A stretch of DNA of 64,000 bases from Bradyrhizobium oligotrophicum S58 (GTDB taxonomy: Bacteria > Pseudomonadota > Alphaproteobacteria > Rhizobiales > Xanthobacteraceae): NCBI RefSeq assembly GCF_000344805.1, contig NC_020453.1, positions 1,116,001 to 1,180,000 of the forward strand. Reading direction: 5' to 3'. This document shows, piece by piece, positions 1 through 41,081 of the stretch. Positions within the stretch are counted from its first letter, which is position 1. Each line of letters opens with the position of its first letter. Position numbers and translations under genes: made by a program. The notes beneath the pieces were generated by a model. The model was not told the DNA's origin. It was given only the letters and a program-made list of their open reading frames with translations, and made no database searches.

Positions 1-5371
<5,371 letters not shown>

Positions 5372-5469
5372 TGCCGAGCTTCTTATTGCTTGATCGAAGG
5401 GACGACACTGCCTCGACGGCGACGGTCAAGTCGACGAAGGCTTTATATCGGTAGCGGCTGCGTGCGTCG

Positions 5470-5688
5470 TTATCGCGCGTCAGCTATCTGGGATGAGGCG
5501 AGGCTCTGTGGCCTCATATCCTTCCAGTGCGCCTCGATATATTCGAGGCAGTCTGCTCTGATCGAGGGTCCAAAAGCGATCTTCCAGCCGGGTGGAACTT
5601 CAATCGAAGTTGGCCAAATTGAATACTGCCCCTCATCATTCCTCAAAGCGCAGTAGTGGGCCGTTCCATCCTCAAACGGATTCGACAT
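5470..5688 (-). CDS. MbtH-like NRPS accessory protein
   Basis: A 72-residue protein of the MbtH family, small partners that bind adenylation domains and are needed for their solubility or activity. It begins MSNPFED and carries the family pattern NDEGQYSIWP, followed by PPGWKIAFG and a short C-terminal helix; length is normal for the family. The ATG at 5688 is preceded by GAGGA about nine bases upstream, so I prefer it over an in-frame TTG at 5709. The gene ends 98 bp before the NRPS start on the same strand, so the two are probably co-transcribed. This supports the NRPS being functional and MbtH-dependent. Confidence 0.93.
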   Translation of the reverse strand: MSNPFEDGTAHYCALRNDEGQYSIWPTSIEVPPGWKIAFGPSIRADCLEYIEAHWKDMRPQSLASSQIADAR

Positions 5689-6625
5689 TGCATATCCTCG
5701 AACAACCAAAAGCTGCGCCAGACTTTGTCGTGACTACGACATTACCTTAGGTTGAACGAACTACCAGCGAAAATCAAGCGCAACATTCAAGACCTATTTG
5801 CTTTCCATTATCTCGCGAATGGATGTGCGCTGCAAACAAGATGCGCGTCACGCGCATGCACAGTAGATGAAGAGGCTCGCGTGTCATGGGGGATCCAAGA
5901 AACCAACGCATTACAACGATGTGATCTGCCCGATAAAAAGAGCGTGGCTACGACGCCAGGGCGCCGACCGCGTCGATGTTTGGGCGAACGACGGTCAGTT
6001 CAACTGTTGAGTTTTGCTGAGCACGACTGGCACATCGAATGCCTGTGTATAGAGCGATGGGGTCGTGCTAGTCGGCGAGAGCAGGCGATCTGCCCAGCGA
6101 TTGAGTAATCTCATAAATACAACCCATCTATCGAAGGTTGCAAAGTACCGCAAAATGAGCTATTAGGTTTAACGTTGAAGCTAAGGCGCACTCGGTGGTG
6201 GGAATGTTGGTAGGATCTACGCCCAACATGGGCGAACGCTTTGGGACGCAGCTCCGGCGTGATCATCGCCCGCAGCGTGAGTGGTTCAATTCGATCGCCC
6301 GCGGCCGCCAGGGCCGCAGAGGAAACGGGTAGCCTCCGACTCGAAGGGCTTCATCTAGCGAGCGTGTGTAGGGCGTGGTCGTCGGCGAGACGTCGTCTCA
6401 GATCGGCTGATCTGCCGTTGATCATCGCTTGTTAGTGTGAGTCGATCTCGTGAAGGGTGGAATTGCACGGTGCCGACCGGCCGTCGCCGGCGATCGATGT
6501 CGTTTGAATGTATCAGGATATCTAATGATGCGGGATGCGGATTTGGTCGATGCGGCGCTGCCCGCAGCGGCCGTGGCCTTGTGAATGTCTCCGATCGAGT
6601 AGCAAGTTTAGGATAGGGGCAAGAG
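5689..6625. other. Divergent intergenic region, no recognised gene
   Basis: About 0.94 kb between the MbtH start (minus) and the aminotransferase start (plus), presumably with promoters for both directions. The open frames here (for example 5752-6108 and 6241-6435) have no recognisable motif and no convincing ribosome site. Segments around 6040-6110 and 6360-6420 resemble each other loosely (GTCGGCGAGA followed shortly by GATCTGCC), like decayed copies of one repeat. I could not identify an insertion sequence. Confidence 0.5.
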
Positions 6626-7954
6626 ATGTCTGATCTAGAACTTCGCGCGCTTGAACGGCAACACGTCGTTTACGGCTGGCAGCCCCAGAGGCTGGCCGCG
6701 CCATTGTTGGTGACGCGGGCGGAGGGAGTAAATTTCTGGGATAGCTGCGGAAATCAATATCTCGATCTTTGTTCCGGGCAGATCAACGTCAATGTTGGCT
6801 ATGGCCATCAAGCCATCATTCAGGCCATGAAGCGACAGCTGGATTGCCTCACCTACATTGCGCCGGGCTTCGCAACCGAGCCTCGCGTGAGGCTTTCTTC
6901 GATGGTAGCGAAGAGATGTCCCGGTGATCTTCAATATGTATTCTTTAGTAACAGCGGGTCGGAGGCCATCGAGAACGCAATTAAGATTGCCCGCGCAGCT
7001 ACCGGGCGGCTGAAAATCTACTCGGCATGGCAAAGCTATCATGGCGCAACGGCTGGAGCTTCGGCCATTTCAGGAGATCCTCGGCGCCTGTTCGCGGAGC
7101 CGGTGGTGCCTGGAGTTGCAAAATTTCACTACGCGGCGTGCTATCGCTGCCCATTCGGACAAAGTGCCCCACCGGATTGCGGGTTCTCGTGCTTGGCGAG
7201 CCTCGAACGCCAGATCGATCATGACGGTCCAGAGACGATCGCGGCAATCGTGCTTGAGCCGATCGTGGGGACCAGTGGGCTTTATGTCCCTCCGGTCGAC
7301 TTCATAAAGGGCATTCGCAAGCTGTGCGACGAGCATGGCGTTCTGTTGATATTCGACGAAACGATGACCGGGTGGGGACGCACAGGCAGATGGTTTGCGT
7401 GTGAGCACTTTGATGTCGTGCCTGACATCCTAGTGACTGCCAAAGGGATCACCTCGGGCTATGTGCCGCTCGGAGTTACTGTATTCACCCCAGCAATTCG
7501 CGAGAAGTTCCTGGACACCGCGTTTGTCGGAGGGCTGACAAACGAAGGGCACACTCTCGCTTGCGCCGCGGGCATCGCGAATATCGAGGTGTATGAGCAA
7601 GAGGGGCTTATCGAACGATCTGCCGCCTTAGGCGAATATCTCAACAAGAGCCTGCTCGAGTTGCAGGCGATGCACCCGAGTGTCGGTAGCGTTCGAGGAA
7701 AAGGCTTGTTCGCTTGTCTCGAGCTTTCGTCTGATCGTGAACGACGGATCGGAATTGCTGGATATCGAAACGCGCGATGCACTATTGCCGGAGAGATCAC
7801 GAGCAGAATGCTGCAGATGGGTGTCTTCGTCGTTGCCAAGTGGGACTTCATATTTGTTGCACCACCGCTGATCATATCGAGGACGGCGCTCACAGAAGCA
7901 ATCGAAAAGCTCGATAAGGTGCTTGCCTACACAGATGAACTGGTCCGCTGCTGA
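6626..7954 (+). CDS. Class III PLP-dependent aminotransferase
   Basis: A 442-residue enzyme of the omega-amino/acetylornithine aminotransferase family, cytoplasmic, moving an amino group from an amine or omega-amino acid to a keto acid. Visible landmarks: SNSGSEAIENA (phosphate loop, about 108-118), SYHG near 137-140, FDETMTGWGRTG with the PLP-ring aspartate at 244, and TAKGITSGY with the Schiff-base lysine at 273. Length fits the family. It is followed after 87 bp by an acylating aldehyde dehydrogenase, which suggests its product is an aldehyde channelled to an acyl-CoA, as in taurine or beta-alanine breakdown. The actual substrate cannot be read. It heads a five-gene same-strand run. The ATG is preceded by GGGGCAAGAG. 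Confidence 0.88.
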   Translation: MSDLELRALERQHVVYGWQPQRLAAPLLVTRAEGVNFWDSCGNQYLDLCSGQINVNVGYGHQAIIQAMKRQLDCLTYIAPGFATEPRVRLSSMVAKRCPGDLQYVFFSNSGSEAIENAIKIARAATGRLKIYSAWQSYHGATAGASAISGDPRRLFAEPVVPGVAKFHYAACYRCPFGQSAPPDCGFSCLASLERQIDHDGPETIAAIVLEPIVGTSGLYVPPVDFIKGIRKLCDEHGVLLIFDETMTGWGRTGRWFACEHFDVVPDILVTAKGITSGYVPLGVTVFTPAIREKFLDTAFVGGLTNEGHTLACAAGIANIEVYEQEGLIERSAALGEYLNKSLLELQAMHPSVGSVRGKGLFACLELSSDRERRIGIAGYRNARCTIAGEITSRMLQMGVFVVAKWDFIFVAPPLIISRTALTEAIEKLDKVLAYTDELVRC

Positions 7955-8041
7955 TTGAGGTGGGTGTGCCTCCCACGAGGGCCGGCACGGCTGCCGGCCG
8001 AAGAGAGTATAGACCAACCACATAGTCCGCCGGAGACTCCG

Positions 8042-9472
8042 ATGCATACGCTATCTGCGAGCGCCAACGAAGTGACGTTTATAGTCCAGCGCGCTCGCAT
8101 TGCGCAAAAGTGCTTCGAGGGGGCGCAGCAACGCGAGATCGATCTGGCTGTTGCCGCTGCTGGATGGCGTTGTTATCGGGACGAGACGGCTCAAGAACTA
8201 AGTTCACTGGCCATTGAGGAGACGGAGCTCGGAAACGCCGTTGATTCCTATCAGCGTTTGCGCAAGCGCATCCTTGGGACATTGAGGGACTTGGCTGATG
8301 CGGTCACTGTGGGTCTTGTTCACGAGGATGTCGCCAGGGGTGTTCGAAAATTTGCGAAGCCGGTTGGGGTAATCGCAGGAATTACGCCCGCGACTGCGCC
8401 GGCGGCCGCCGCAATCGTGAACTCGTTGTCCTCTTTGAAAACCAGAAATGCCATCATATTTTGTCCAAATCCGCGGGCGCACCGTACCGTAGGCAGAGTC
8501 GTGGAACTGGTTCGTGATGCGCTCCGGGAGGTTGGTGCGCCGGTCGACCTTGTGCAGTGTGTGGGCGTGCCGACGCGCTCAATCTCTGAGGAATTGATGG
8601 CGACGGCGGACCTGACCATCGCGTCAGGGGGAGCAAGCACGGTCCGGCGCGCGTATCGCAGCGGAAAGCCCGCGCTGGGCGCGGGTGTTGGCAACGCGGT
8701 CGTAGTTGTTGACGATACTGCAGACCTCGACGCCGCAGCTTCCATGATTATCGCTGGAAAATCCTTCGACTATGGAACGTCGTGTTCGTCCGAAAGCTGC
8801 ATTCTCGTTGATGAGTCGGTTTCGGATCAGCTGATCGGAAAACTGGTCGAAAACGGTGCATATATGTGCAGCGGCCCAGAGATGGCCAGTTTACGCAGGA
8901 CAGCGTGGCCGGATGGCGAGCTGGCGCGAGAGATTGTCGGCAAGAGCGCCAAGCAGATCGCCGATCGAGCATGTATCGAGGTTCCGCAAAAGACACGCGT
9001 CTTGCTGACCCTGCCAGAAACGACTCATGCAGAGCCACTGGGCGGCGAAAAATTGTCTCCCATCCTTGCCCTCTGGAAGTTTGCGCAATTCGATCATGCC
9101 GTTGGTCTCGTGCAGCGCCTTGTTGCAGCCAGTGGAGCTGGCCACAGCTGCGCGATTCACACGAACGTCAGAGAGCGTGCTGAAATTCTGGCGCGTACGA
9201 TTAATGTGAGCCGCGTTCTTGTAAATCAGTCGACCGGCATGGGAAATTCCGGAAGCTTTGACAACGGCCTGCCATTCTCGGTGACGCTTTCTTGCGGAAC
9301 CTGGGGAGGGGGATCGACCACGGACAACGTGAATTGGCGGCACTTCCTCAACTATACGTGGCTGTCCGAAACGATTCCGAAGAATGAGCCGCGGCCGGAA
9401 GACCTCTTTTCCGAGTACTGGAGCGTCTACCATCCCACAGCGTCTTACGTAGGGCAGTTAGGCGGGATGTAG
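8042..9472 (+). CDS. CoA-acylating aldehyde dehydrogenase (sulfoacetaldehyde/acetaldehyde dehydrogenase-like)
   Basis: A 476-residue enzyme of the acylating aldehyde dehydrogenase family (EutE, N-terminal half of AdhE, SauS), which turns an aldehyde plus CoA and NAD(P)+ into acyl-CoA. The sequence shows GVIAGITPATAP (about 109-120), SLKTRNAIIF (131-140), ASGGAS, and the catalytic segment FDYGTSCSSE with the nucleophile Cys248. I chose the ATG at 8042 because GGAGA lies just upstream; an earlier TTG (7955) only adds a low-complexity leader. The preceding aminotransferase could supply the aldehyde. With that pairing, sulfoacetaldehyde (from taurine) or malonate semialdehyde (from beta-alanine) are candidates, but this is inference. 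The C-terminal part (GTWGGGSTTDNVNWRHFLNYTW) is typical of the family. Confidence 0.85.
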   Translation: MHTLSASANEVTFIVQRARIAQKCFEGAQQREIDLAVAAAGWRCYRDETAQELSSLAIEETELGNAVDSYQRLRKRILGTLRDLADAVTVGLVHEDVARGVRKFAKPVGVIAGITPATAPAAAAIVNSLSSLKTRNAIIFCPNPRAHRTVGRVVELVRDALREVGAPVDLVQCVGVPTRSISEELMATADLTIASGGASTVRRAYRSGKPALGAGVGNAVVVVDDTADLDAAASMIIAGKSFDYGTSCSSESCILVDESVSDQLIGKLVENGAYMCSGPEMASLRRTAWPDGELAREIVGKSAKQIADRACIEVPQKTRVLLTLPETTHAEPLGGEKLSPILALWKFAQFDHAVGLVQRLVAASGAGHSCAIHTNVRERAEILARTINVSRVLVNQSTGMGNSGSFDNGLPFSVTLSCGTWGGGSTTDNVNWRHFLNYTWLSETIPKNEPRPEDLFSEYWSVYHPTASYVGQLGGM

Positions 9473-9855
9473 ATCTTGTCGGGCACGGCTGTGAACGCAT
9501 TTCGGGCCGATCTGCAAAGGCAAGCGATCGAGGCAGATCGCGCAAGGAGGGATTGCCGGCTTTCGCCGATCGAACGCCGAGGCCCTTGCTCGCTAAGTCT
9601 TCGTCGTCATGTCCGGCTGTGCGTTGGAGCGCACGTTGGCGATAGCTGGAGCGTCTTGGTGGATGAGTACGGGAGCGCCAGCGCTTGTTCGGTCGCTCCG
9701 ACACTTGATCTCGGTGAACAGCGCGGTCGTTCCCTCGGCCTCCGCTCGTCCGAGGTCTGGAAGTGCGAAGCTAACGGTCACCGAGCTGCAAAATCTGGAC
9801 GCCAGCTGTCCGGAATAAGACCGTCAAACGTGAGCACGGTAGAGCGGAAAGGTGC
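9473..9855. other. Spacer within the five-gene cluster
   Basis: This 383-bp gap separates the dehydrogenase from the large cytochrome c protein. Both strands contain open frames (for example 9593-9781 minus), but none shows a recognisable domain or a good ribosome site. It may carry a separate promoter for the three haem/DUF genes downstream, or be the scar of a lost gene. I see no clear hairpin terminator. Confidence 0.4.
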
Positions 9856-12800
9856 ATGATGGCGGTAGTGGGAGATATCGCTCGATCCCTTCGCCTTTCG
9901 GGTAGAGGATCGTTTGTCTTGAAAGCGCTGATCGGCAGCGGACTGGTCGGGGTCGCCGCTTCTGCGACTGTGTTTGGCTTCCGGCTTCAAGGTGGCGGGT
10001 GGCCGGCGGTGTACGGCGAAGAGTTGCCTGACGTCATCAGTTACAACACGGACGTTCGGCCGATCCTCTCGCAGAATTGCTTCCGTTGCCATGGCCCGGA
10101 TGCTGCTGCCCGCAAGGCGGGCTTGCGCCTAGATGTACCGGAATCGGCCTATGCCGAGTTGCCGAAACATCACGGGGCATATCCGATCGTTCCAGGGAAA
10201 CCCAGAAACAGCGAGCTGCTTCGGCGCCTGGCGGCATCCGATCCCGACGAGCGAATGCCGCCCCCGGATACTCACTTGTCGGTGTCGAAGCGTGAAGTTG
10301 CGCTCTTGGAGCGATGGGTCCAACAAGGAGCCCGCTACGAGCGGCATTGGGCCTTTATTCCACCGAGCAAGAGCGTTCTGCCTCGGACGCCGTGGGACAC
10401 CCGGGCAAATAATGAGATTGATCGATACGTGTACGGTAAACTGGCACAGCACAATCTGGTGCCATCGGCTGAAGCGGACAAGGAGACCCTGATCAATCGC
10501 GTTGCGATGGATCTGACAGGATTGCCGCCAACGTTGCAGGAAGTTGACTCATTTCTTGCAGATAACGATGCCAACGCCTACGAGAAGGTCGTCGAACGGC
10601 TTTTGGGCTCCCGAGCTTATGCGGAGCGGCAGGCGAATATCTGGCTCGATGTCGCGCGCTATGCTGATAGTGACGGCTTCACGATTGATGCGCTTGGACG
10701 GTTTCAGTACCCCTATCGCGACTGGGTGATCAGCGCCTTTGATAGGAATATGCCGTATGACAAGTTTGTAACTTGGCAGATTGCGGGCGACAAACTGCCA
10801 AACGCCACACCCGAGCAAGTGCTTGCGACCGCGTTTGCCAGAGCTGGAAAGAAGAGTGCCGAGCTGGGCATTACCGATGAGGAATATCGCGTCGAATATG
10901 CCAGCGAGCGAACTGATCTAATTGGGAAGGCAGTCCTAGGCTTGACCGTCGGCTGCGCAAAGTGTCACGATCACAAGTATGACGAGATATCGCAGGCCGA
11001 ATACTACTCACTTATGGGGTTCTTCAACTCGGTAGATGAGCGTGGTATTGCTGACTATGCTGGGTGGGGGCCGACTCTGGCCTGGCCGAGCCCACAACAG
11101 TCAGCACAACTTGCGATCTTGCATAATGAGGTCGAGCGTCGTTTTGAGGAGTTCAAGGCAATTTTCGCTGCCGCCAAGGCCAGCGCCGAGTCAACCGCGC
11201 CGCGCGAGGTGGGCGACACGGGAGAGCTGATCCAATCTCTCGTCACGGAAGCCCAGCAGGCCTACTACCCGTTTGAAAATAGCTACAAAGCCTCATTTGA
11301 GCCGCTAACCATTGGGAAGTACCCCGCGAGGATTCCAAACAGTCCGGTTTTCGGGGTGGCTCCCGGTCAGGATCACGGCGGAGGCCGGGCAGCAGAAGAG
11401 CTCGACGCTGCCGCTGTCAAAGCGGCCAACGGCAATCGGCCGCCTGAGGTTATGCAGAAGGCCCTCCTGATCGGCCTGGATGAACAGAAGCTAGCTTATT
11501 CGGCAGATGGGGTCGATCCGAGTGCGCCTGGGGCAATCAATGGCGCTCACGTCGTCGATGGCCCGCCCGGCAAAGGGAAGGCGATCATGATCGACGATAC
11601 CATCGCTTTCGCCAACAAGAAGGTTGGACAGTTCGAGCGAACAGATCCCTTTACTCTCGATGTTTGGCTGAAGTTGAGGGCAGACAAGACATACTCGGAA
11701 GTGCCCGTGCTCTACAATTCCGATATACGAAGTGGTGGCTATGAGCTGAGGCTGGACGAGAATGTGCTGAGCTTCAATCTCCGGCACACGGCCCCGTACG
11801 ACATGATCGAAGTTGCGATGACATCTCCGCTGCCGACGGGGCAGTGGACTCATGTCACAGCGACGTATGATGGAAGTAGCAGCGCTGCTGGGGTGCATCT
11901 TTATGTTGATGGCGAGAAGGTTCGGACAGAGGTCCTTCATGACCGGCTAACCCGTTCGATCCTTCCGAATCCAAGGAAAGGGATTTATGGGTGGTTCATG
12001 GGTTTGTCCTTCGGACGAACGTTCGGAGCGCCGGAATTCAATGGAGGTTCTATCGACGAGTTGCGCGTCTTTACTCGGGCATTGACGCCTGTTGAAGTTT
12101 CATATCTCCACGACCCGTCGTCTGTAATAGGATTGCCGCACGAAACCGTCCAAGGCCAGTTGTCGGATGCGCTTGCGGAGCGCGATGTCAAAGTCAAGAT
12201 TGCTCGCGCGAACCTCAGGGAGGCGGTGCTCGCAGAGCAGACCGAATATACGAAGGTGCCACAGATCGACGTGCTGATGGATCGCCCGAAAGAGCGACCA
12301 ACCTATTTGCTCGAGCGCGGTAGCTTCGATCGTCGTCTTCAGCAGGTGCCAGTTCAGGCGCTTGGCCGCATCTTCCCCTGGAAGAGTGAATTACCCCGAA
12401 ATCGTTTAGGTTTGGCGGAGTGGCTATTTGATCCGCAAAATCCGCTCACGGCCCGTGTGTACGTCAACCGCATTTGGCGAGACCATTTCGGGACCGGAAT
12501 TGTCGAAACCGTCGAAGACTATGGTACTCAGGGATCGAATCCCAGCAATCCAGAGCTGCTTGACTATCTTGCGACTGAACTCGTGCGCTCTGGTTGGGAC
12601 ATCAAGCATATTCATAGGCTGATCGTTATGTCGGCGACGTATCGACAGTCTTCGGTGATGACGGCGGAAACTAGCAAAAAGGATCCGCGGAATGTCTACC
12701 TGGCACGTGGACCGCGATATCGCCTATCAGCTGAAGCCATTCGCGACAATGCGCTAGCAGCCTCGGGCCTCCTGGTTGACCGAGTCGGCGGCGACAGCGT

Positions 12801-13347
12801 GTTCCCTTACCAACCAGGCGGTCTCTGGTTTATGACGGGAGCAGCGAACCAAGTCTACCCAGACCGGTCACTGATTCCGGCGGATGAGCTGCATCGACGG
12901 TCGATGTACACTTTCATCAAGCGAAATTCTCCACCACCTGCCATGTCGGTGTTCGACCTCGCGGACAGAAACGTATCCTCAGTATCGCGGTCTCTGTCAA
13001 ATACGCCCTTACAGGCTCTGGTGCTGCTGAACGACCCACAATTTGTGGAGGCGTACCGGAAGTTGGCGGAGCGTGGGATCCGAAGCTCATCGGACGGCGA
13101 CCAGCAAATTGTCACTGTGTTCCGTCTCGTCACCCGTCGGCATCCGTCGAACCAGGAACTCGAGACGCTTCGCAAATACAGAGCTTCGCAAGTTGAAGGG
13201 TTGAGTGCGTCACCGCAAGACGCTGCGGCGATCCTGAGTGTGGGCAACCCGGCTTCAGATCTCGGCGCCAATCCCGCTACGCTTGCCGCAATGACGCTGG
13301 TCACCGCGGCGATCATGAATACACCCGACGCCTATTCTTTACGCTAA
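9856..13347 (+). CDS. Planctomycete-type cytochrome c / DUF1549 / LamG / DUF1553 protein
   Basis: A 1163-residue exported protein. Order of parts: N-terminal hydrophobic segment (about 21-45); PSCyt1 cytochrome c domain with haem site CFRCH (Cys75, Cys78, His79) and a distal RMPPPDT; DUF1549/PSCyt2 with a second CAKCHDHKYD haem site (Cys367, Cys370); a LamG/concanavalin-like segment (about 600-755, FTLDVWLKLR ... YDGSSSAAGVHLYVDGEKV ... GGSIDELRVFTRALT); and DUF1553/PSD1 (about 840-1130, NPLTARVYVNRIW, ATYRQSS, LQALVLLNDP). From family knowledge this architecture abounds in Planctomycetes and Verrucomicrobia and is rare in Alphaproteobacteria; its biochemical role is unknown. The next gene encodes DUF1501, its usual partner. 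GC is moderate (36 of 60 bases in 10801-10860), which with the family distribution suggests transfer. GGAAAGG precedes the ATG. Confidence 0.9.
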   Translation: MMAVVGDIARSLRLSGRGSFVLKALIGSGLVGVAASATVFGFRLQGGGWPAVYGEELPDVISYNTDVRPILSQNCFRCHGPDAAARKAGLRLDVPESAYAELPKHHGAYPIVPGKPRNSELLRRLAASDPDERMPPPDTHLSVSKREVALLERWVQQGARYERHWAFIPPSKSVLPRTPWDTRANNEIDRYVYGKLAQHNLVPSAEADKETLINRVAMDLTGLPPTLQEVDSFLADNDANAYEKVVERLLGSRAYAERQANIWLDVARYADSDGFTIDALGRFQYPYRDWVISAFDRNMPYDKFVTWQIAGDKLPNATPEQVLATAFARAGKKSAELGITDEEYRVEYASERTDLIGKAVLGLTVGCAKCHDHKYDEISQAEYYSLMGFFNSVDERGIADYAGWGPTLAWPSPQQSAQLAILHNEVERRFEEFKAIFAAAKASAESTAPREVGDTGELIQSLVTEAQQAYYPFENSYKASFEPLTIGKYPARIPNSPVFGVAPGQDHGGGRAAEELDAAAVKAANGNRPPEVMQKALLIGLDEQKLAYSADGVDPSAPGAINGAHVVDGPPGKGKAIMIDDTIAFANKKVGQFERTDPFTLDVWLKLRADKTYSEVPVLYNSDIRSGGYELRLDENVLSFNLRHTAPYDMIEVAMTSPLPTGQWTHVTATYDGSSSAAGVHLYVDGEKVRTEVLHDRLTRSILPNPRKGIYGWFMGLSFGRTFGAPEFNGGSIDELRVFTRALTPVEVSYLHDPSSVIGLPHETVQGQLSDALAERDVKVKIARANLREAVLAEQTEYTKVPQIDVLMDRPKERPTYLLERGSFDRRLQQVPVQALGRIFPWKSELPRNRLGLAEWLFDPQNPLTARVYVNRIWRDHFGTGIVETVEDYGTQGSNPSNPELLDYLATELVRSGWDIKHIHRLIVMSATYRQSSVMTAETSKKDPRNVYLARGPRYRLSAEAIRDNALAASGLLVDRVGGDSVFPYQPGGLWFMTGAANQVYPDRSLIPADELHRRSMYTFIKRNSPPPAMSVFDLADRNVSSVSRSLSNTPLQALVLLNDPQFVEAYRKLAERGIRSSSDGDQQIVTVFRLVTRRHPSNQELETLRKYRASQVEGLSASPQDAAAILSVGNPASDLGANPATLAAMTLVTAAIMNTPDAYSLR

Positions 13348-13362
13348 TTCGGAGATAGACGC

Positions 13363-14847
<1,485 letters not shown>

Positions 14848-14865
14848 CCCAGTGACTGGCGGATT

Positions 14866-14885
14866 CGTCTCAAGGAGCTGAGACG
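14866..14885 (+). promoter_or_regulatory. Hairpin carrying the ribosome binding site in its loop
   Basis: CGTCTCA (14866-14872) and TGAGACG (14879-14885) form a perfect 7-bp stem. The 6-nt loop holds the AGGAG ribosome site of the next gene (GTG at 14890). This could display or regulate the site in the mRNA. Confidence 0.5.
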
Positions 14886-14889
14886 TCGA

Positions 14890-16578
14890 GTGGTCGAGAA
14901 AAAGCGGCTGTTTATGGTGCGAGAATCCAGCGTCCCGGTCTGCAATGCTCCGTCGGCACGCGTATCGTCGGGCCCGCGCGATAGATATTCCACGGTCGCC
15001 GTCTTACTGCACTGGGGGATTGCCGCCATATTGTCGGTCCAGATCTTCCTGGGTTGGCGTTTGGAGGGCGAGGAGCGCTTTGTCAGTTCTGGCTTTCTGA
15101 AAGTCCACAAAACGATCGGAATCCTGATACTGGCGCTCACACTCGCGCGTGTGCTTTGGAGAGTGTGGAAAAGACCGCCAGCTCGAGACAATCCTCTCAA
15201 ACCAATCGAGCAGGTGCTGGCTGGGTCGGTGCACGCTTGCTTCTATGTCCTGCTTTTGGTGCTGCCCCTTTCTGGCTGGGCCATCGCTTCGATGCGATCC
15301 ATGGGCTCGGTTCAGCTTCTAGGCTTCATGTCCTTGCCTCAGTTTCCGCTTATTTCGCTGTTGTCTGATGAGAGGCGAGACAATCTTTCTGTAGGCCTTA
15401 GTGATGCTCACGCGTTGATGACGTGGCTCATGATTGGACTCGTTGCAATACACGTCGCCGGCGCTCTTAAGCATCATCTAGTGGCAAGAGACGGAACGGT
15501 CGGTCGAATGCTTCCGGGCGTTCCATCCGTGGCCGTCGGGTATTTTCTTCTGGCGAGCCCATTCTGTGTCGCTCTTCTTGGGGCACTTGTTTATTCGGCG
15601 GAGCTGCCAGGTCCTGCTCTTCGGCCCAAGCCGGCCGGTCTGCGGGAAGCAGATCTCTTTCTGGATGTGATCAAGCCCGCCCTCGAGCAGCGGTGTGGTT
15701 CCTGTCATAACGAGGACAATCGGCGTGGGGGGCTATCTGTCACGAATCTCGAGGCACTGATGCAGGGCGGACGGGGTGGGCCGTCCGTAGTTGCGGGGCA
15801 GCCGCTCGCAAGCGAACTCCTTCGTCGCATTTCGCTGGCTCCAGAGGATCCGAAGTTCATGCCGAGGAGTGGGCGCCGCCCCCTTAGCTCTTCACAGATA
15901 TCGGCGATTCGACTTTGGATCGAGGCGGGTGCGTTGATGCCCGAGCCTGTCGCAGCTTTGCATTTGTCGGAGGAGCAAAGCGGCATGCTCGTACGCTTAT
16001 TGGGCGAAAGTGGCGCTCCAGACCAGCCGGGTCCTGCATCCGAACCGCTTCCGGTCGTTGCCAAGGCGGATCCTGAGGCGGTTACGCAGCTTTTTGAGCA
16101 GGGCTTCGTTGTCAGAAGAGTATCGTTGACTAGCGAATTGCTCGCGGTCGACTTCACCGGTCGCGGACCGCTATCCGAGGCAGCTTGGTCTGCATTGGCC
16201 AAAATCGCGATACAGACCCGCAGCCTGAATCTTCGTAGTGCTGGCGTGACCGACGAGAACTTGAGCAGGCTCGGAGATTTCGGGAACCTTACGCAGCTGA
16301 GGCTCGAATCTAATGCTATCGGCGATGACGGTGCTGCGCATCTGACATCATTGCGGGCACTGGTTAGTCTAAACGTCGTGAACACGCGAGTGGGCGACTT
16401 GGGAGTGAGGAAGCTCGCGGCCCTTCCCATGCTGCGGCGCATTTACGTCTGGCGGAGCATGGTTTCCCCAACGTTGGTCGCAGACTTGCGCCAAGCCCAG
16501 CCGGGTCTGGTGCTGATTACAGGTGTTGGGCCTGACATTGTTGGGGTGAACTCAAAGCCCTCCGATATGCCGAATTGA
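14890..16578 (+). CDS. Cytochrome b561 - cytochrome c (PSCyt1) - leucine-rich-repeat fusion
   Basis: A 562-residue membrane protein with three parts. Residues about 35-205 are a cytochrome b561-type domain (RYSTVAVLLHWGIAA, HKTIGILILALTLARVLWR, SDAHALMTWLMIGLVAIHVAGALKH) with several transmembrane helices and paired haem-ligand histidines. After a further membrane segment (about 213-236) comes a planctomycete-type cytochrome c domain with CGSCH (Cys269, Cys272, His273) and a distal FMPRSGRRPLS. The C-terminal 120 residues are leucine-rich repeats (LNLRSAGVTDENLSRL, LTQLRLESNAIGDDG, LVSLNVVNTRVGDLG). It probably passes electrons between the quinone pool and periplasmic haem proteins, such as the DUF1549 protein encoded two genes upstream. 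A GTG at 14890 follows AAGGAG by 12 nt; an ATG at 14923 is the alternative start. Confidence 0.85.
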   Translation: MVEKKRLFMVRESSVPVCNAPSARVSSGPRDRYSTVAVLLHWGIAAILSVQIFLGWRLEGEERFVSSGFLKVHKTIGILILALTLARVLWRVWKRPPARDNPLKPIEQVLAGSVHACFYVLLLVLPLSGWAIASMRSMGSVQLLGFMSLPQFPLISLLSDERRDNLSVGLSDAHALMTWLMIGLVAIHVAGALKHHLVARDGTVGRMLPGVPSVAVGYFLLASPFCVALLGALVYSAELPGPALRPKPAGLREADLFLDVIKPALEQRCGSCHNEDNRRGGLSVTNLEALMQGGRGGPSVVAGQPLASELLRRISLAPEDPKFMPRSGRRPLSSSQISAIRLWIEAGALMPEPVAALHLSEEQSGMLVRLLGESGAPDQPGPASEPLPVVAKADPEAVTQLFEQGFVVRRVSLTSELLAVDFTGRGPLSEAAWSALAKIAIQTRSLNLRSAGVTDENLSRLGDFGNLTQLRLESNAIGDDGAAHLTSLRALVSLNVVNTRVGDLGVRKLAALPMLRRIYVWRSMVSPTLVADLRQAQPGLVLITGVGPDIVGVNSKPSDMPN

Positions 16579-16808
16579 GCTTCTGACATCCGCCCGCCGC
16601 GGATCCGGAGGGAGTCTCTCACGCAACCGTCAGGACCGCAAGACGAGCTCTTGTAAGAAGCCCAATCATGCAGGCCGAGATCCCGATCTTTCCGGCGCAG
16701 GGCGAGCGGGGCGCTGGGTACACTGGCGGGTACGCTGGCATAGGTATGCGACGAAAATTCTAATTATTTCAATCATATGAGAGAGCAAGTGATTCCGCCC
16801 CTGGGCAC

Positions 16809-16870
16809 CACGCTTCGCCCTACGGGCTACGCGTGGCGCAGCCGCGCCGTAGCCCGTAGGGCGAAGCGTG
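16809..16870. repeat. Palindromic element, 23-bp perfect arms
   Basis: Arms 16809-16831 and 16848-16870 are exact reverse complements around a 16-nt loop. The core (CGCTTCGCCCTACGGG) belongs to the style of rhizobial REP-like palindromes seen elsewhere in this window. No T-tract follows, so it is a repeat rather than a classical terminator. Confidence 0.85.
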
Positions 16871-17522
16871 CCCGGCGAAGCCTCTTGGCGAAGCCGGGCG
16901 TTTGAGCCCCCCAAGTCTTATTTGGCAAGTCTCGCTTGAGCCGCGCTCTCTGATCCCAATCAACCCTGTCAAACAGCCCGCCGCGCGTGGCAGCCGTAGC
17001 TCGCGCCCATGCCGCCGCAACCTCGCGGCCGGACCGGCCCGAGCTCTGCTGCAGTTGGCGTCCTCTTCAATTGAGAGGGCGCAGGGAAGGCCGAGTGCCG
17101 ACTGGCACCCATGGCCCCCGTGCGAAAGAAGTGCACGGGGCAGGAACCACAGGCTCAGCCGGAAACAACCCGGCCTTCCCTGCGCAATGGTTTGAACGGC
17201 TGCTCCGTGCTCTCCCTGGGGACCGGGCTTGTTTGCCCCCGTCATCGGCATCGTCGCCAACCAAGACACCGGCATCGGGGTGTCGGGACCACACGGCTTG
17301 ACCGTCCGCGGCACGACGTTCGTCCGCACCCCAAAAGAAATGCTGCGTCGCCCCGCGGCCACCGCTCCCCGCCGCAACGTCCCGTGACGATCGCGATACG
17401 CCCCTCTTAGTGCAGGCGGGATGGCGGGAATAAAACCACTGATTTGGGGACCGTGTCAATAAATTTTCTGGTATTCAGAATAAGCTGCTTCGCAGGGGGC
17501 TGCGACCGAACGAAGACAAAAA

Positions 17523-17560
17523 TCCACTTTAGCCGGGCGAATTGTTCCCGCTAAAGTGGA
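17523..17560. promoter_or_regulatory. Inverted repeat upstream of the DUF262 gene
   Basis: TCCACTTTAGC (17523-17533) and GCTAAAGTGGA (17550-17560) are perfect 11-bp arms with a 16-nt spacer, about 105 bp before the chosen start. It could be an operator, or an end remnant of a mobile element. I cannot tell which. Confidence 0.5.
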
Positions 17561-17664
17561 GGTCTTCCCTGGGCACATCGGGGATTTCGCGTTCTTTGAC
17601 GGATATATCGTTAAACCGCCGGCCGGGCGAGGCCATTGCTGAGCATGAAATTGGAGACTTGATC

Positions 17665-19923
17665 ATGAAGGACGCGCAAAAGCCTGATCACATCAGCCTT
17701 AACACGCTGATAGGTCGGCTCCGGGAAGGCCGTTACGTGATCCCGGATTTTCAGCGTGAGTTCGAATGGCGCCCCTGGGATATCCGGGATCTGATGCGCT
17801 CGATCTTCCTTGATTACTACATCGGCAGCCTGCTGCTGTGGAAAGGGACGAAGAAGAATTTCGACGCGCTCTCCTGCGAGAAGATCTACGGCTACAGCGG
17901 CAGCGGTAGCCCGGAGTACATCGTCCTTGACGGTCAGCAGCGGCTGACCGCGATGCACTATGCCTTTTTGTCCCCGGACAGGCCGCTGCCCAACCGCGCC
18001 AACCGCTTCGTCTACTTCATCCACATAGACAAGTTCGCGGAGGAGATGTTCGACGAAGCCTTCGGCTATGACTCGCTCTCCAAGCGTTGGTCGAAACTGC
18101 TCAAGAACCGTGAGGCGCAGTTCGCCGATCATATCTTCCCGCTTTCGGTGATGGGCGCAGGTAGCTGGGACCTGCCGAACTGGATGCAGGGCTACGAGCA
18201 GTACTGGAAGGACAAGGCCGAGCAGGCGAGAGCCGCCGGCAAGGCGGACGACGCGCAGGCCGCGAAAGCACACGGGGTGAACGCACGGGAATTCGGCGAG
18301 CACCTGAAGGGGATCACCGAGCAGTACCAGATTTCCTATATCGAGCTTGACCGCGACCTTGAGGTGGACAAGGTCTGTGACATCTTCACGCAAATCAACA
18401 GCAAGGGCGTCCGGCTCGATGTTTTCGACCTGATCAACGCGCTCCTCAAGCCCAAGGGGCTGCCGCTCAAGCATCTGTGGCGCGAGGCGGCGCCGCGGCT
18501 TGAGTTCGTGGATACCGAGAAGATGAACGTCTACATCCTACAGGTGATGTCCATCCTGCGGCAGAGCTACTGCTCGCCAAAATACCTGTATTTCCTGCTG
18601 CCCGGACAGGAGAAGCCGGTGCGCGATCCGGATGGCACGCGGCGCAAGGAAATCCTGGTTGCGAACATTGACGAGTTCCGGACGCGGTGGACCGCTTCCG
18701 TCGCCGCACTTGAAAAGGCCATCACCGTCCTGCGGCATCCGCAGGAGTTCGGGGCGATCTCGTCCAACTATCTGCCCTATGTCTCCATCCTTCCCGTGTT
18801 CGCGGCGCTTCAGGCGCATGTCGATGCGGTGCCTGCGCACCGGCAGCTGACAGCGCAGCGGAAGATTCGGCACTGGTACTGGGCCTCGGTCTTCATCAAC
18901 CGCTATTCGGGCTCGGTCGAATCCACGAGCGCGCGCGATTTCCTGGATATGAAGGCGTGGATCGAGGACGACGCGGCAGAACCGGCGCTGATCGCGGATT
19001 TTGCGTCCCGCTTCCGCACGCTTGACCTGCGCGGTGAAACCAAGCGCGGTACGTCGGTCTATAACGGCATCTTCAACCTGTTGGTGCTGCAGGGGGCGCG
19101 CGACTGGATGAAGGGCAGCGTGCCGCAATACGGCGATCTCGACGACCATCACATTGTGCCGGCGTCCTGGGGCGCGAAAAACATCAAGGGCGGGCTCATT
19201 CATTCGATCCTCAACCGCACGCCGCTCACCGCCGATACGAACCGGCGCGTCATCAACGAGGATTTGCCGAACAAATACCTGCCGGTGCTGATCCGGGAGA
19301 ACGGCGAGCCGACGGTGCGGGCGATTCTGGAGACGCATTTCATTTCAGCAAAGGCCTTCGCCACCCTGCTGCGCGATCCGTTCGGTCCGGAGGACTTCGA
19401 AGCCTTCATCGCCGAGCGGCAGAAGACGATTCAGGAAGCGATCGAGAACCTCCTGATCAAGGGACGCATTGACCTGCCGGTTCAGCTACGCGAGACGGAT
19501 GAGCAGATCGAGCAGATCGAGCTGGGCCTGCGGGCCGAAGTGGTCGCAGCGCTTGCGGGCGATGCTAGGCTGCTGCCGCCCGGCCTTGCGCAGAAAGTGG
19601 ATGAGAGGATCGGGCAGGCGCTCAAGAAGAACGCGGCGCTCGATCCGGAGCAGTTCAGGCCGCTTGAGCGAAGGCTTGAATATTTCGACCTGCGCGACGT
19701 GCAGGAAGTGATGACGGGGAAGGCGCTCTGGCCCCGCTTTGAAGCGCGCTTTGCCAACAAGGACGTGGTGACGGGCAAATTCAATCAGCTCGCGGAGCTT
19801 CGCAACTCACTGCGCCACAGCCGCAGCGTGGATGAGATCACCCGCAAGGAAGGCGAGGCGGCAGTGCTGTGGTTCAGCCAAGTTTTGAGCAAACCCAAAC
19901 CCGTAGCGGGAGCATCCGCCTAA
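17665..19923 (+). CDS. DUF262/HNH (GmrSD-like) nuclease-type protein
   Basis: A 752-residue protein joining a DUF262 ParB/sulfiredoxin-fold domain at the N terminus (IPDFQREFEWRPWDIRDLMRS, about 26-46; the nucleotide-handling motif DGQQR at 89-93; FTQINSKGVRLDVFDLINA) to a DUF1524-like HNH segment (DDHHIVPASWG, about 493-503, followed by LTADTNRRV). In GmrSD-type IV restriction systems such proteins cut modified phage DNA using a nucleotide. Here both parts are on one chain, plus a charged C-terminal extension (about 590-752). The start at 17665 has GGAGA upstream; an extended reading from 17542 runs through a hairpin and is unlikely. No partner gene is adjacent, so antiviral defence is inferred from family only. 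Confidence 0.8.
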   Translation: MKDAQKPDHISLNTLIGRLREGRYVIPDFQREFEWRPWDIRDLMRSIFLDYYIGSLLLWKGTKKNFDALSCEKIYGYSGSGSPEYIVLDGQQRLTAMHYAFLSPDRPLPNRANRFVYFIHIDKFAEEMFDEAFGYDSLSKRWSKLLKNREAQFADHIFPLSVMGAGSWDLPNWMQGYEQYWKDKAEQARAAGKADDAQAAKAHGVNAREFGEHLKGITEQYQISYIELDRDLEVDKVCDIFTQINSKGVRLDVFDLINALLKPKGLPLKHLWREAAPRLEFVDTEKMNVYILQVMSILRQSYCSPKYLYFLLPGQEKPVRDPDGTRRKEILVANIDEFRTRWTASVAALEKAITVLRHPQEFGAISSNYLPYVSILPVFAALQAHVDAVPAHRQLTAQRKIRHWYWASVFINRYSGSVESTSARDFLDMKAWIEDDAAEPALIADFASRFRTLDLRGETKRGTSVYNGIFNLLVLQGARDWMKGSVPQYGDLDDHHIVPASWGAKNIKGGLIHSILNRTPLTADTNRRVINEDLPNKYLPVLIRENGEPTVRAILETHFISAKAFATLLRDPFGPEDFEAFIAERQKTIQEAIENLLIKGRIDLPVQLRETDEQIEQIELGLRAEVVAALAGDARLLPPGLAQKVDERIGQALKKNAALDPEQFRPLERRLEYFDLRDVQEVMTGKALWPRFEARFANKDVVTGKFNQLAELRNSLRHSRSVDEITRKEGEAAVLWFSQVLSKPKPVAGASA

Positions 19924-20252
19924 TGACACGGGGGTATTACCAGGGGGGACGGTAACAGTGCACAGAACTCCGCGGGGGCATGGCGCGAGTGGACTTGATA
20001 GCGACAGCGGGCAGGTCCCAGAGGTTTAATGCACTGTCACCGTAGTGCTCGACATCTTTGAGGTTCGGGATCGCCTTGCCGCCGGGCTCGGCGGTGCTCC
20101 GCCAAGTTCATTATCGGCGGTGTCGGGATGCGGGGATGCGTGTGCAGTCCCCCTGCGGCCGAGCGTCCGGTTTCCGCCTGGATGCCAACGCGAACTGTCG
20201 ACCGAAGGCGGTCCTTAGGATCGCCAAACAGGTCAAAGGTGCAGGACAAGCA
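19924..20252. other. Intergenic region with imperfect inverted repeat
   Basis: 329 bp without a supported gene. It contains GGTAACAGTGCA (19951-19962) and TGCACTGTCACC (20030-20041), inverted with one mismatch. Similar GGGGAC-plus-GTGTCA sequence lies left of the DUF262 gene near 17440-17455. Such motifs often flank repeat-associated or mobile DNA, so they may bracket a transferred segment. Confidence 0.4.
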
Positions 20253-20657
20253 TTAGACGGAGTAATCCACAACCCTTAAATCGGTGTCGCCACTTTCCCA
20301 GATGTTTTGGCGGGTAGCACGCGACATGACGATGCAGCCGTGAGACGCGGCACCGGTCCGCCTCGGAGGCTCAGTGCGCTTATAATCGCCATGAATATAG
20401 AAATTTTTCCTTGGCGGATTGCACACATCGGTACCTGGCTTTGGAATGAGCGGAAGTGCATAATCAGTAGGTCCAACTACAGGTGCGCCGATTACGTAGT
20501 CGCCACGCGGAATTGGTCCGGTGTCTTCTAGACACTGCATATCAGGATTGTTGAGTCCGGCTCCGCCTCCCGCATATCCAGCCTCCATCGCGGTCGGCTT
20601 ATCTCCGACAACGGACTGCCTGTAGATCGTGCCGAGAGCCTGAGAGTAGATCCACAT
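20253..20657 (-). CDS. DUF2778 / Tlde1-type L,D-transpeptidase-fold protein
   Basis: A 134-residue protein with the catalytic layout of the DUF2778/Tlde1 family: FYIHG (His89) followed by SHGCIV (nucleophile Cys108), preceded by IPRGDYVIG. Family members act on peptidoglycan stem peptides; in Salmonella Tlde1 is a type VI secretion effector delivered into rival cells. There is no signal peptide, which fits delivery through a secretion machine. No type VI structural gene is in the window, and the usual immunity gene is not recognisable. It lies 84 bp downstream of the secreted MACPF-like gene on the same strand. GC is clearly lower than in the surrounding core genes, suggesting recent arrival. 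The effector role is inference; a housekeeping wall enzyme is the alternative. Confidence 0.78.
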   Translation of the reverse strand: MWIYSQALGTIYRQSVVGDKPTAMEAGYAGGGAGLNNPDMQCLEDTGPIPRGDYVIGAPVVGPTDYALPLIPKPGTDVCNPPRKNFYIHGDYKRTEPPRRTGAASHGCIVMSRATRQNIWESGDTDLRVVDYSV

Positions 20658-20741
20658 CGCTACCGACCTTTTTTCGCTAAGTTAAAGCGCAGGCAATGAG
20701 GCCTTGCGACGACAGGTTGGTTTTGATCGTGCACCGCTAAC

Positions 20742-22487
20742 TCACTGTGGAGCTACTAGCGAACGAACCAACGCTTTTGTCTCTAGGGCATCCAATTGCT
20801 GCGGCATAAATACTGAGATCATCGGTTTCGGCGGTTCTTTTGGTTCTAAAAAGCATCCATCGTCTCCGTCGCCGGGGCCGCCGACCTGGCAAAATTTGAG
20901 GTCGATTTGCGGCCTTATGACCCCAGCGTCAGGGCCAGTGCTGGGCACAGCACCTGCCTCCTGATAATCAAATGGAGTCGGTCCTTGCGCGGCTCCGCCT
21001 TGAACGGGGCCGTTTTGTCCAGGCTTAACAGTGAACCAACCGTTCCCACCTACCCGAACTCCGACAGTTCCAGAATATATGGTGAGAACGTTAGCGTTGC
21101 GAGGCATCCCCGAACATTGCCGAGTGAACAGATCGCCAGGAACCGTTATTCTGCGGGTCACGAATTCGCACTTTGTGCAAACGCATTGCCCATTTATTCT
21201 CGCACGAGCCTTACAACCGTCGTTGGTCGCTTCGTCGGCAGAAATTGCACATTTCTGAAGCATCCGTATCGCCGGAAGTTTTTCTATCGTGGCGTCTGCC
21301 AGAAGAGGACATCCAGTGGCGGCTTTAATGGATTTCACGCAATTCTTCGCCAATGACTGCAGTACTGATACGCGACCTGCGATGCGATCATTGTATGCTT
21401 TTAAAACAGCTGGCTTATTGATGTCTGCGCCTTCAAAAAGCTCAGGATTTGAGATCGCCGACGTAATAACGTCAAAATTGCTGCGCGCTTTCTCATACGT
21501 ACTGACAATAAGCTCTAAATTATCTAATCCCGGATCAAAATTAAGCAACTTGTCGCGCTTATATTTCTGGAATAAGATTATTGCTTGTGGCAATTGCGAG
21601 AACGATAGCCAATATGCCCTAAATGGACGAGCTTGAATGTCGCTTGGCTTGTCTTTATCGGTGCAGGGTCCACCAGGTACACTAGTGGCCGGTTCCGGCA
21701 GCGTTCCTAGTCCCCCGCAAAGCAGCATCCTCGAGAACCTTCGAGCATGATCTATCAGCGCAAGAGGGTCTTGGAACGGCGGCAAGGGAACTGTCGCGAG
21801 CCCTATTTGTTGCGTGGTTATGTCGAGCTCACTAAAGAGTTTCTTATCCAACATTTCGCGCAATTTTTTTGCATCCGCCTCCGCTCCTTGATAGGCGGCA
21901 CTCGCTTCCAGCCGCACGTTTTCTGCGACTTCGTTGGATATCGCTTTATGCTTCACTACAGCTTGAAGCCCCGCTCCATCCTCAATTTCATGTATAAATG
22001 CGTCACCACAAGCTTTAGTAAATAGACTTCCAGTTGGGTCAATCTCGATAAGTTTTTCAGCCGCAGACGTAAGGGATACTTTCGTTAAATCGATCTTGCG
22101 CTTTATTCCTGTAACTCGAACGTCCATGAACAACTGCGAAATGTCGGTATTCAGCGAATTGTCCAAAAATTCGGATGCAGATATCGAGAGCTTACTTCCG
22201 AATCCAAAGTAAGCGGCATATCCACTAATTTCTTGAAGTTTCCGAACTTGATTAACTGAAGCCGAGTAAGTAATCAGCGTGTCTTGACGCGCTCCGCGCA
22301 CCTCTGGCGGCATAGTGGCGCCAGCTAAGTTTAGACAGGGTGCACCTTCTTCCCCTGTCGCTGTTATTATGCCCTTGCCCAGTTCCCACTGCGGACCTTG
22401 TTCTTGGATTAACGTACTATTTTGCGCACATGCGAACGTAGATAGTGAGGAGAACACGATTGCCAAAGCATATGTAAGCCATCGCAT
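20742..22487 (-). CDS. Secreted MACPF-like protein, possible pore former
   Basis: A 581-residue exported protein. The signal peptide is MRWLTYALAIVFSSLSTFACAQ, with a likely cleavage after residue 20 or 22. The central part (about 60-200) has the feel of MACPF/CDC pore-forming proteins: SGYAAYFGFGSKLSISAS, DVRVTGIKRKID, then CGDAFIHEIEDGAGL (160-174), comparable to the conserved Y-G-T/D-x-F/Y...GG signature. The C-terminal region is cysteine-rich (CVCTKCEFVTRRITVPGDLF, CFLEPKEPPKP) and proline/glycine-rich. I prefer the ATG at 22487, since GGAG sits six bases before it; the ATG at 22499 is the alternative. AT content is high (24 of 60 bases G or C in 21481-21540). Pore formation is a hypothesis from motif likeness; the export signal is seen. 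Confidence 0.6.
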   Translation of the reverse strand: MRWLTYALAIVFSSLSTFACAQNSTLIQEQGPQWELGKGIITATGEEGAPCLNLAGATMPPEVRGARQDTLITYSASVNQVRKLQEISGYAAYFGFGSKLSISASEFLDNSLNTDISQLFMDVRVTGIKRKIDLTKVSLTSAAEKLIEIDPTGSLFTKACGDAFIHEIEDGAGLQAVVKHKAISNEVAENVRLEASAAYQGAEADAKKLREMLDKKLFSELDITTQQIGLATVPLPPFQDPLALIDHARRFSRMLLCGGLGTLPEPATSVPGGPCTDKDKPSDIQARPFRAYWLSFSQLPQAIILFQKYKRDKLLNFDPGLDNLELIVSTYEKARSNFDVITSAISNPELFEGADINKPAVLKAYNDRIAGRVSVLQSLAKNCVKSIKAATGCPLLADATIEKLPAIRMLQKCAISADEATNDGCKARARINGQCVCTKCEFVTRRITVPGDLFTRQCSGMPRNANVLTIYSGTVGVRVGGNGWFTVKPGQNGPVQGGAAQGPTPFDYQEAGAVPSTGPDAGVIRPQIDLKFCQVGGPGDGDDGCFLEPKEPPKPMISVFMPQQLDALETKALVRSLVAPQ

Positions 22488-22798
22488 CGGCGGCTCCATC
22501 CATGAGAACGCTCTTTAAAAATCTTGACGTTTTTTGATTAGTTTGTATCGGTTTCACGACCCTGGCAAGCGACAAAATCCACCATCGCGAACATCAAGCT
22601 GCGTTCTGCTCCGATAGGTGGTCGCACAGGTAGGCCGAAAGCGGAGACGGCCCGGGGGCGATTGGGACGACTAGTTCTCGAACAGAGCAGCGTGTTGGGG
22701 TTAGACGGCGGATTCTAGTTTGAAGTGCAGCACCCCGTACATATATCGAGGGTGAGCATGGGACGCCACTACAGTCAATTGAGCGCGACAGCACGTAG

Positions 22799-22828
22799 GG
22801 CGGATTAGTTAGCGGAGCGTAATCCGCC
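22799..22828. repeat. REP-like palindrome (GGCGGATTA type)
   Basis: Arms GGCGGATTA (22799-22807) and TAATCCGCC (22820-22828). The flank GTAGGGCGGAT is mirrored in the element at 22969-22994, which lies in opposite orientation. Confidence 0.75.
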
Positions 22829-22968
22829 ATGCGGGATCATTCGATGTCGGCTTTGGACCGTCGACCGCAAGCTCGATGGGCAACCACTAGCGGATCAAGC
22901 TGGTTCACGGCAGGAACGAGCTTCCTCCAGGAATGAGCGCCGACGGTTGTTGGCAAGCAGCGTAAGCT

Positions 22969-22994
22969 GGCGGATTGCGCTGCGCTCATCCGCC
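22969..22994. repeat. REP-like palindrome, inverted partner
   Basis: Arms GGCGGAT (22969-22975) and ATCCGCC (22988-22994), followed by CTACG. With the copy at 22799 it forms an inverted pair about 140 bp apart. Confidence 0.7.
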
Positions 22995-23147
22995 CTACGA
23001 ACTACGCTGACGATTGCGGACTCGAAGTTGCAGGCATCCCACGCTAGTCACGAATCCACCTTTGACTCCAAGTTGCCGAAGTGATCATCTTCTCCATTGA
23101 CGGGAGAGGCAGGCTCCAGCCAATCACACGCATCCAGGGAGGCGATG

Positions 23148-23900: not shown

Positions 23901-24104
23901 GCGACATCTCCTCACGGGGGCGGATCGGGCCGTATCACGGCATGGCGCGATTGCGCGGTCGCACCGCTCTTGATCTCCAGCGGCTCTGCTGGATCATGCG
24001 CCCACGACCCTCTCCATCGTCGCGCGCACGGTCCAGGCTCGCGCGGTGGAGCGGACCATCCGGCGCAGCTAGCCTGGTGCCATGAGCAGACAAGGAGACC
24101 GCGG

Positions 24105-35552: not shown

Positions 35553-35581
35553 GCTCTCGTCAAAATTGACGGGAGCGGAAC

Positions 35582-38175: not shown

Positions 38176-38320
38176 AGCACCCCATTGCACTCCGCATTGG
38201 GAACTGGTTGGCTGTTTCCCCGTCATATGAACGTACCGGTAGCGCATCCGGGCCTTCGAGGCCGGCGCGCCCGGACCCGACGAACTCATGACGCGACAAC
38301 GAGTTGCAGGGAGGAGAACT

Positions 38321-41043: not shown

Positions 41044-41081
41044 GACGGCGTTGCCGTGGCCTGCGCGCACGCCACTCCCTT

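Follow-up and report, generated by a model that had tools for sequence, protein, structure and literature searches.

Five genes on the forward strand of the Bradyrhizobium oligotrophicum S58 genome (8.26 Mb, one contig) may belong to a horizontally acquired island that joins two modules: a trio for a putative periplasmic, membrane-anchored redox and hydrolase unit, and a pair for an aminotransferase and an aldehyde dehydrogenase. The genes lie at 6626 to 16578 of the window, by which we mean the whole 64,000-nucleotide stretch analyzed (contig NC_020453.1, positions 1,116,001 to 1,180,000), and coordinates below refer to it. We propose this reading as a whole, an acquired island with the trio coupled to the pair in a joint function, tentatively and at somewhat below an even chance. 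The domains, predicted fold, heme motifs, trio order, codon usage and linkage (from contig sizes) on which it draws were established by computation.

The original prediction had described five same-strand genes with this domain composition, and the coordinates of the five open frames and the Pfam domains, each above its cut-off, agree with it. AMT (6626..7954, +, 442 amino acids) is a class III, pyridoxal phosphate-type aminotransferase (PF00202, E 4.9e-90). It is followed by ALDH, a CoA-acylating-type aldehyde dehydrogenase of 476 amino acids (8042..9472, +, PF00171), whose frame is open from a TTG at 7955 and most likely starts at the ATG at 8042, because a public protein matched the 476-residue version at 100% coverage. 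PSD (9856..13347, +, 1163 amino acids) has a hydrophobic N-terminal stretch, followed by PSCyt1 (residues 75-138, 10078..10269), PSCyt2 or DUF1549 (187-394, 10414..11037), a Laminin_G_3 or concanavalin-type lectin domain (591-749, 11626..12102) and PSD1 or DUF1553 (849-1108, 12400..13179). The DUF1501 protein (13363..14847, +, 494 amino acids, Pfam E 1.1e-146) carries a signal resembling those of twin-arginine translocation (Tat), with RR at residues 17-18. CYTB (14890..16578, +, 562 amino acids) joins a membrane cytochrome b561 domain (32-210, 14983..15519) to a PSCyt1 heme c domain (269-325, 15694..15864) and leucine-rich repeats (LRR_6, 466-482, 16285..16335). The intergenic gaps are 87 bp between AMT and the ALDH ATG, 383 bp between ALDH and PSD, 15 bp between PSD and DUF1501 and 42 bp between DUF1501 and CYTB, so that the five genes look like two plus three rather than one tight operon. 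Terminator-like sites numbered 18 against 10.5 by chance, with none on the plus strand of the 9473-9855 gap; promoter-like sites (3 against 4.7 by chance) were not above chance, and an Rfam search of 4000-24000 gave no match.

PSCyt1, PSCyt2 and PSD1 score 56.7, 262 and 324.1 bits against cut-offs of 22, 29.8 and 28.5, all within PSD. An earlier account of PSCyt/PSD-type proteins includes Laminin_G_3 among their reported architectures (PMC5615132). PSD contains two heme c motifs, C75FRCH and, within PSCyt2, C367AKCH; C367, C370 and H371 are invariant in 22 aligned sequences, and C75, C78 and H79 nearly so. The AlphaFold2 model of DUF1501 (pLDDT 79.6) matches members of the alkaline phosphatase superfamily by both Foldseek and VIA-align, which predicts that superfamily's fold for the protein. 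Many aspartates, histidines and glutamates are invariant among its relatives and might include metal ligands or a nucleophile. In CYTB, the b561 domain scores 98.5 bits (PF01292, cut-off 30.1), the single heme c motif, C269GSCH, is conserved or nearly so across 18 sequences, and H73, H188 and H195, candidate heme ligands, are invariant in 18 of 18.

We propose that PSD, DUF1501 and CYTB would work together on the periplasmic side of the membrane. DUF1501 would be exported folded via Tat and act as a metal-dependent hydrolase or transferase of the alkaline phosphatase superfamily, and PSD would bring two c hemes and a lectin-like domain that binds the substrate. CYTB may anchor the complex, its c heme and b-heme b561 domain exchanging electrons with the quinone pool; such transfer through b561, as originally predicted, is a reasonable reading of the domain that is present. 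A substrate opened or oxidized outside could yield an amine- or aldehyde-bearing product that is taken into the cytosol, where AMT and ALDH would interconvert amine, aldehyde and acyl-CoA.

By composition, the cluster looks foreign to its genome. The GC content of 2-kb windows is 50-61% from ~4 to 23 kb and 62-70% in the rest of the window, and all five genes have a GC content at third codon positions (GC3) of 0.612-0.630 and similar codon usage. The mean codon-usage distance is 0.84 within the five genes and 1.27-1.72 to other genes of the window, namely those for an MbtH-like protein (73 codons only) and GmrSD, the gene at 20742 and three with a GC3 of 0.82-0.91. Residues 1-423 of the adjacent nonribosomal peptide synthetase (NRPS) resemble the five genes (GC3 0.572, codon distance 0.80), and residues 424-1790 (1,367 residues) have a host-like GC3 of 0.885; because of this shift, the left edge of the island seems to lie at ~4.1 kb, within the NRPS gene. 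The nearest relative found, genome G089, shares window positions 16791-17430 (89%, L167 11041-11664) and parts from 24105 on. The 16791-17430 stretch, just right of the cluster, is repeat-like without a clear gene, has a second, 70% copy in the G089 locus and gave no match in a plasmid search; since the interval of 16.8-17.4 kb resembles repeated non-coding sequence, an exact right border is not claimed.

The genes are also rare. PSCyt2 has one match in the source genome, this cluster, and among 60 genomes searched only the source genome had any. A sample of 385 genomes from the class contained the full-length b561 fusion in the source genome only, the b561 part alone being matched in three others. 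AMT was likewise confined to the source genome at E 1e-110 among 242 genomes of the genus and at 1e-115 among 397 of the order. ALDH is commoner, with matches in 12 of the 242 genus genomes at 1e-20 and in 33 of the 397 order genomes at 1e-105, the best other relative being 51% identical.

Searching with DUF1501 yielded 149 confirmed relatives, from which 80 loci were retained for neighborhood counts. PSD lies within 1.5 kb and on the same strand at 73 of the 80, a count in which the script scored locus L003 as lacking PSD though a PSD-matching frame adjoins DUF1501, and in which contigs end close to DUF1501 at L007, L016 and L029. The PSCyt1-LRR half of CYTB has a matching gene within 6 kb of DUF1501 at 30 of the 80 loci, the b561 half at none. 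In the Caulobacterales metagenome-assembled genome (MAG) to which locus L002 belongs, two complete b561-PSCyt1-LRR genes lie on contigs other than that of L002. The gene order of the window recurs on L112, one of those contigs: PSD, truncated where the contig stops, is followed by DUF1501 (65% identity), the b561 fusion (42%) and a gene encoding an alcohol dehydrogenase N-domain. In the DUF1501 tree, a quick tree with long branches, the window joins the Caulobacterales MAG copies (SH-aLRT 100; 65-66% identity), and next come L003, from Acidobacteria, and three gammaproteobacterial MAGs (SH-aLRT 99). Planctomycetes or Verrucomicrobia, which the name PSCyt/PSD suggests and the domains do not require, did not hold the nearest kin. 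The cluster had been called planctomycete-type, which fits its domains but not its nearest DUF1501 relatives found. At four loci (L116, L117, L118 and L143), a gene for an NHL or six-bladed propeller protein lies beside or inside the trio gene set.

The third gene varies in its membrane part. A tree of the PSCyt1-LRR part places 24 of the 25 b561 proteins in one set of 26 rows (SH-aLRT 97), together with two non-b561 proteins, P0022 and L114; the membrane part of these proteins may therefore have been exchanged during evolution. P0022 and L114 (2921-4486) have a DUF2231-like membrane part with a weak b561 match as well, a vestige of either an exchanged domain or an ancient relationship. In a Pfam scan of ten non-b561 third-gene proteins, DUF2231 exceeds its cut-off in L116 and L069, is weak in L007, L114, L119, L121 and P0022, is marginal in L048 and was undetected in L117 and L024. 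Five histidines are invariant in all 38 non-b561 membrane parts, and two of these are seven apart as in b561 and occupy the same alignment columns. Homology of the b561 and DUF2231-like parts is not claimed: a profile comparison with a 13-sequence set gave P 6.5e-5 but a probability of 64%, partly via the shared tail, and one with all 38 gave 4%. In its widest form, our proposal is that the DUF1549/DUF1553-DUF1501 trio could be a general periplasmic respiratory enzyme, an alkaline phosphatase-fold metalloenzyme with a multi-heme oxidoreductase that feeds quinone through interchangeable b561 or DUF2231-like heme domains, DUF2231 being an unrecognized b-type cytochrome, and that here an amine-bearing substrate is oxidized outside the cytosol and finished as acyl-CoA inside; taken in all its parts, we consider this unlikely.

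The best solved relative of AMT is a taurine:2-oxoglutarate aminotransferase (PDB 6jix, E 1.1e-93), and its best NCBIfam match is NF004718 (PRK06062; 460.2 bits, under the cut-off of 472). ALDH matches SauS best in NCBIfam (NF047625; 481.8 bits, under the cut-off of 600) and aligns with an acetylating succinate-semialdehyde dehydrogenase (PDB 8cei, E 9.6e-86), including the CSSE motif; the CoA-acylating type assigned to it earlier agrees with its family. For linkage, the first 120 AMT, first 120 ALDH and first 23 CYTB entries of the protein search listings were compared for contigs of the same size, two relatives on contigs of equal size being indirect evidence for one shared contig. Besides the source genome, the listed AMT and ALDH matches have 15 contig sizes in common, against ~0.6 expected after jittering, and the first 30 entries of each have 10 in common, against 0.03-0.04. 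AMT and ALDH distances over the 16 pairs (15 contigs and the window) are correlated (r 0.75, permutation p 5e-5). The listed CYTB and ALDH matches have two sizes in common, 19,101 and 22,501 bp, against ~0.1 expected, where CYTB/ALDH rank 2/2 and 1/3, respectively; the listed CYTB and AMT matches have none. At six ALDH-relative loci inspected by eye, SucC- or SucD-like genes are near in four and Xsc-like genes in two.

A joint unit is favored because all five genes have a common GC3 and codon usage and because relatives of ALDH and CYTB, at 68-77% identity, have two contig sizes in common. Several results weigh against it. The 383-bp gap may separate the transcripts, AMT is not among the listed matches on the 19,101- and 22,501-bp contigs that link ALDH and CYTB, and there are genomes with one module only. 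ALDH has no match at any of the 80 DUF1501 loci and AMT has one, which is weak; in G649, the closest trio genome, ALDH was not found at 1e-40, and the aminotransferase, 34% identical, is located away from the trio. An AMT-like gene (26%) lies beside ALDH, within ~1.5 kb on each side, at just two of 33 loci (L092 and L093). The proposed chemistry faces objections as well: the listed fold matches of the PSD model (pLDDT 75.7) look lectin-domain only, so that DUF1549 and DUF1553 offer no functional clue, and the TM-scores of DUF1501 are low (TMq 0.27-0.37). The trio and the pair could instead be functionally unrelated, one a redox and hydrolase module and the other for amines and aldehydes, neighbors by chance in one acquired island. 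This would suit the 383-bp gap, the 80 loci devoid of ALDH, the 15 contig sizes that AMT shares with ALDH and the none that it shares with CYTB, and the lack of ALDH at 1e-40 in eight of ten genomes with DUF1501 relatives, the other two having 32-33% matches; against it stand the like codon usage of all five genes and the two contig sizes common to the ALDH and CYTB relatives, and we hold it to be somewhat unlikely. The earlier description of one catabolic unit stands for its composition, but the five genes divide into two modules that also occur separately. The refuting condition set in the original prediction, relatives that never occur together, is half answered: ALDH and b561-fusion relatives apparently share two contigs, but AMT was unseen with the trio elsewhere.

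Other explanations assign the pair, or both modules, to a different pathway. AMT and ALDH might serve the divergent NRPS cluster by supplying or modifying a building block, an amine or an aldehyde, perhaps working reductively, with the trio as a bystander. The MbtH and giant NRPS genes, on the opposite strand, begin 0.9-1.3 kb upstream, the first 423 NRPS residues share the low GC3 of the five genes, as if the island included the NRPS start, and on a Methylobacterium plasmid a 51% AMT homologue and an NRPS gene are 6.8 kb apart. That plasmid is one locus only, however, in which a transposase and a gene of the major facilitator superfamily intervene, the bulk of the NRPS within the window is host-like in GC3, and the two contig sizes shared by ALDH and CYTB relatives link the pair to the trio; we judge this explanation distinctly unlikely. 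Improbable, in our estimate, is that the trio is a carbohydrate-degradation module whose amino-sugar-derived product is processed by AMT and ALDH. It would give a role to the lectin domain of PSD. On Catenovulum plasmids, trio-type genes adjoin GH43, GH115 and GH98 genes and have fucP nearby; in Haliscomenobacter a SusD-type gene is close, and a rhamnosidase and a GMC oxidoreductase are near at L119 and a sulfatase at L117. Architecture and context also led the authors of PMC5615132 to suggest a function in carbohydrate metabolism. Carbohydrate genes nevertheless do not dominate the tally of neighbors (PEPCK 5, DnaG 4, bestrophin 4, NHL 4, TonB 3, amylase 3 and sulfatase 2, among 114 mechanically picked frames, some maybe spurious, at 30 of 37 loci and for 25 of 151 families), and those frames of the window that were scanned with Pfam include no glycoside hydrolase. 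The idea of the trio as a general polysaccharide locus is weakened by the tally. Sulfonate catabolism, in which AMT would make sulfoacetaldehyde from taurine and ALDH sulfoacetyl-CoA, accords with the best solved relative of the former and the best NCBIfam match of the latter, but both NCBIfam scores are below the curated cut-offs, and the SucC-/SucD-like or Xsc-like neighbors of ALDH relatives are not evident here. The best match in an Xsc search of the genome scored 291.4 bits against a cut-off of 676.4. With no Xsc above that cut-off, a taurine route through this enzyme was dropped as the main hypothesis; we consider sulfonate catabolism highly improbable.

Beyond the five genes, the left side of the window holds the divergent NRPS genes, which the earlier account did not include. 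An MbtH-like gene, named by eye, lies at 5470..5688 on the minus strand, and the NRPS gene, whose 5' part occupies 2..5371 on the same strand, starts at 5371 and continues outside the window over G000:C1:1084238-1116001. It is one open frame of ~37.1 kb and ~12,377 residues, reaching L152:2238, with condensation, adenylation, carrier, methyltransferase and terminal thioesterase domains (from a scan of all but ~5,000 residues), and an ABC transporter gene is located after its far end. Its GC3 jumps after residue 423, which a replacement of the first condensation domain could explain. To the right of the cluster, a GmrSD_N gene (17542-19923, +), by its name presumably of a restriction-endonuclease family, has a GC3 of 0.80 and a make-up unlike that of the five genes. 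Two adjoining minus-strand frames lie in a stretch of 50-53% GC, one with Tlde1/YkuD (L,D-transpeptidase-like) domain matches (20253-20657) and one of 585 amino acids without a Pfam match at 1e-3 (20742-22499); judging by the domain name, these are possibly a toxin-type pair. Among plasmids, DNA resembling 35500-43400 occurs most often in records of Sinorhizobium, Rhizobium and Agrobacterium, as suits an alphaproteobacterium.

Searches of open-licence literature gave no description of a system of this composition and, in PMC, no reaction for PSCyt1, DUF1549, DUF1553 or DUF1501, both in agreement with the original prediction. The trio itself is of a known, widespread and unexplained kind; new are its b561 anchor, its neighboring amine pair and its single copy. 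A single-copy trio that has a recognizable b561 subunit, not the obscure DUF2231-like kind, and adjoins two metabolic enzymes would allow the function to be tested through simple gene deletions and assays. Compared with PSCyt/PSD ("planctomycete-specific") genes (PF07635, PF07583, PF07587 and PF07394), the cluster is alike in domains and in the adjacency of PSD and DUF1501, and differs in its single copy, the b561 domain in the third gene, the AMT-ALDH neighbor and the proteobacterial origin of the nearest DUF1501 kin found. DUF1501 is predicted to share its fold with sulfatases, nucleotide pyrophosphatases/phosphodiesterases and PafA of the alkaline phosphatase superfamily, at just 11-18% identity, the likeness being that of the model. 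The taurine:2-oxoglutarate aminotransferase 6jix and PRK06062 are of the same class III as AMT, for which taurine use would be predicted only by similarity to 6jix. The acylating sulfoacetaldehyde dehydrogenase SauS has the CSSE motif in common with ALDH, which falls under its cut-off, is 36-51% identical to the relatives listed from the order and belongs to a genome without Xsc over the cut-off. Unlike the window, the 6.9-kb contig L112, cut at its PSD end, has neither AMT nor ALDH beside the b561 fusion. Counterparts of CYTB itself are the b561-PSCyt1-LRR proteins from a Caulobacteraceae bacterium, from G649 and from metagenomes (P0001-P0021; L112 and L113), which share its architecture and are 38-70% identical to it.

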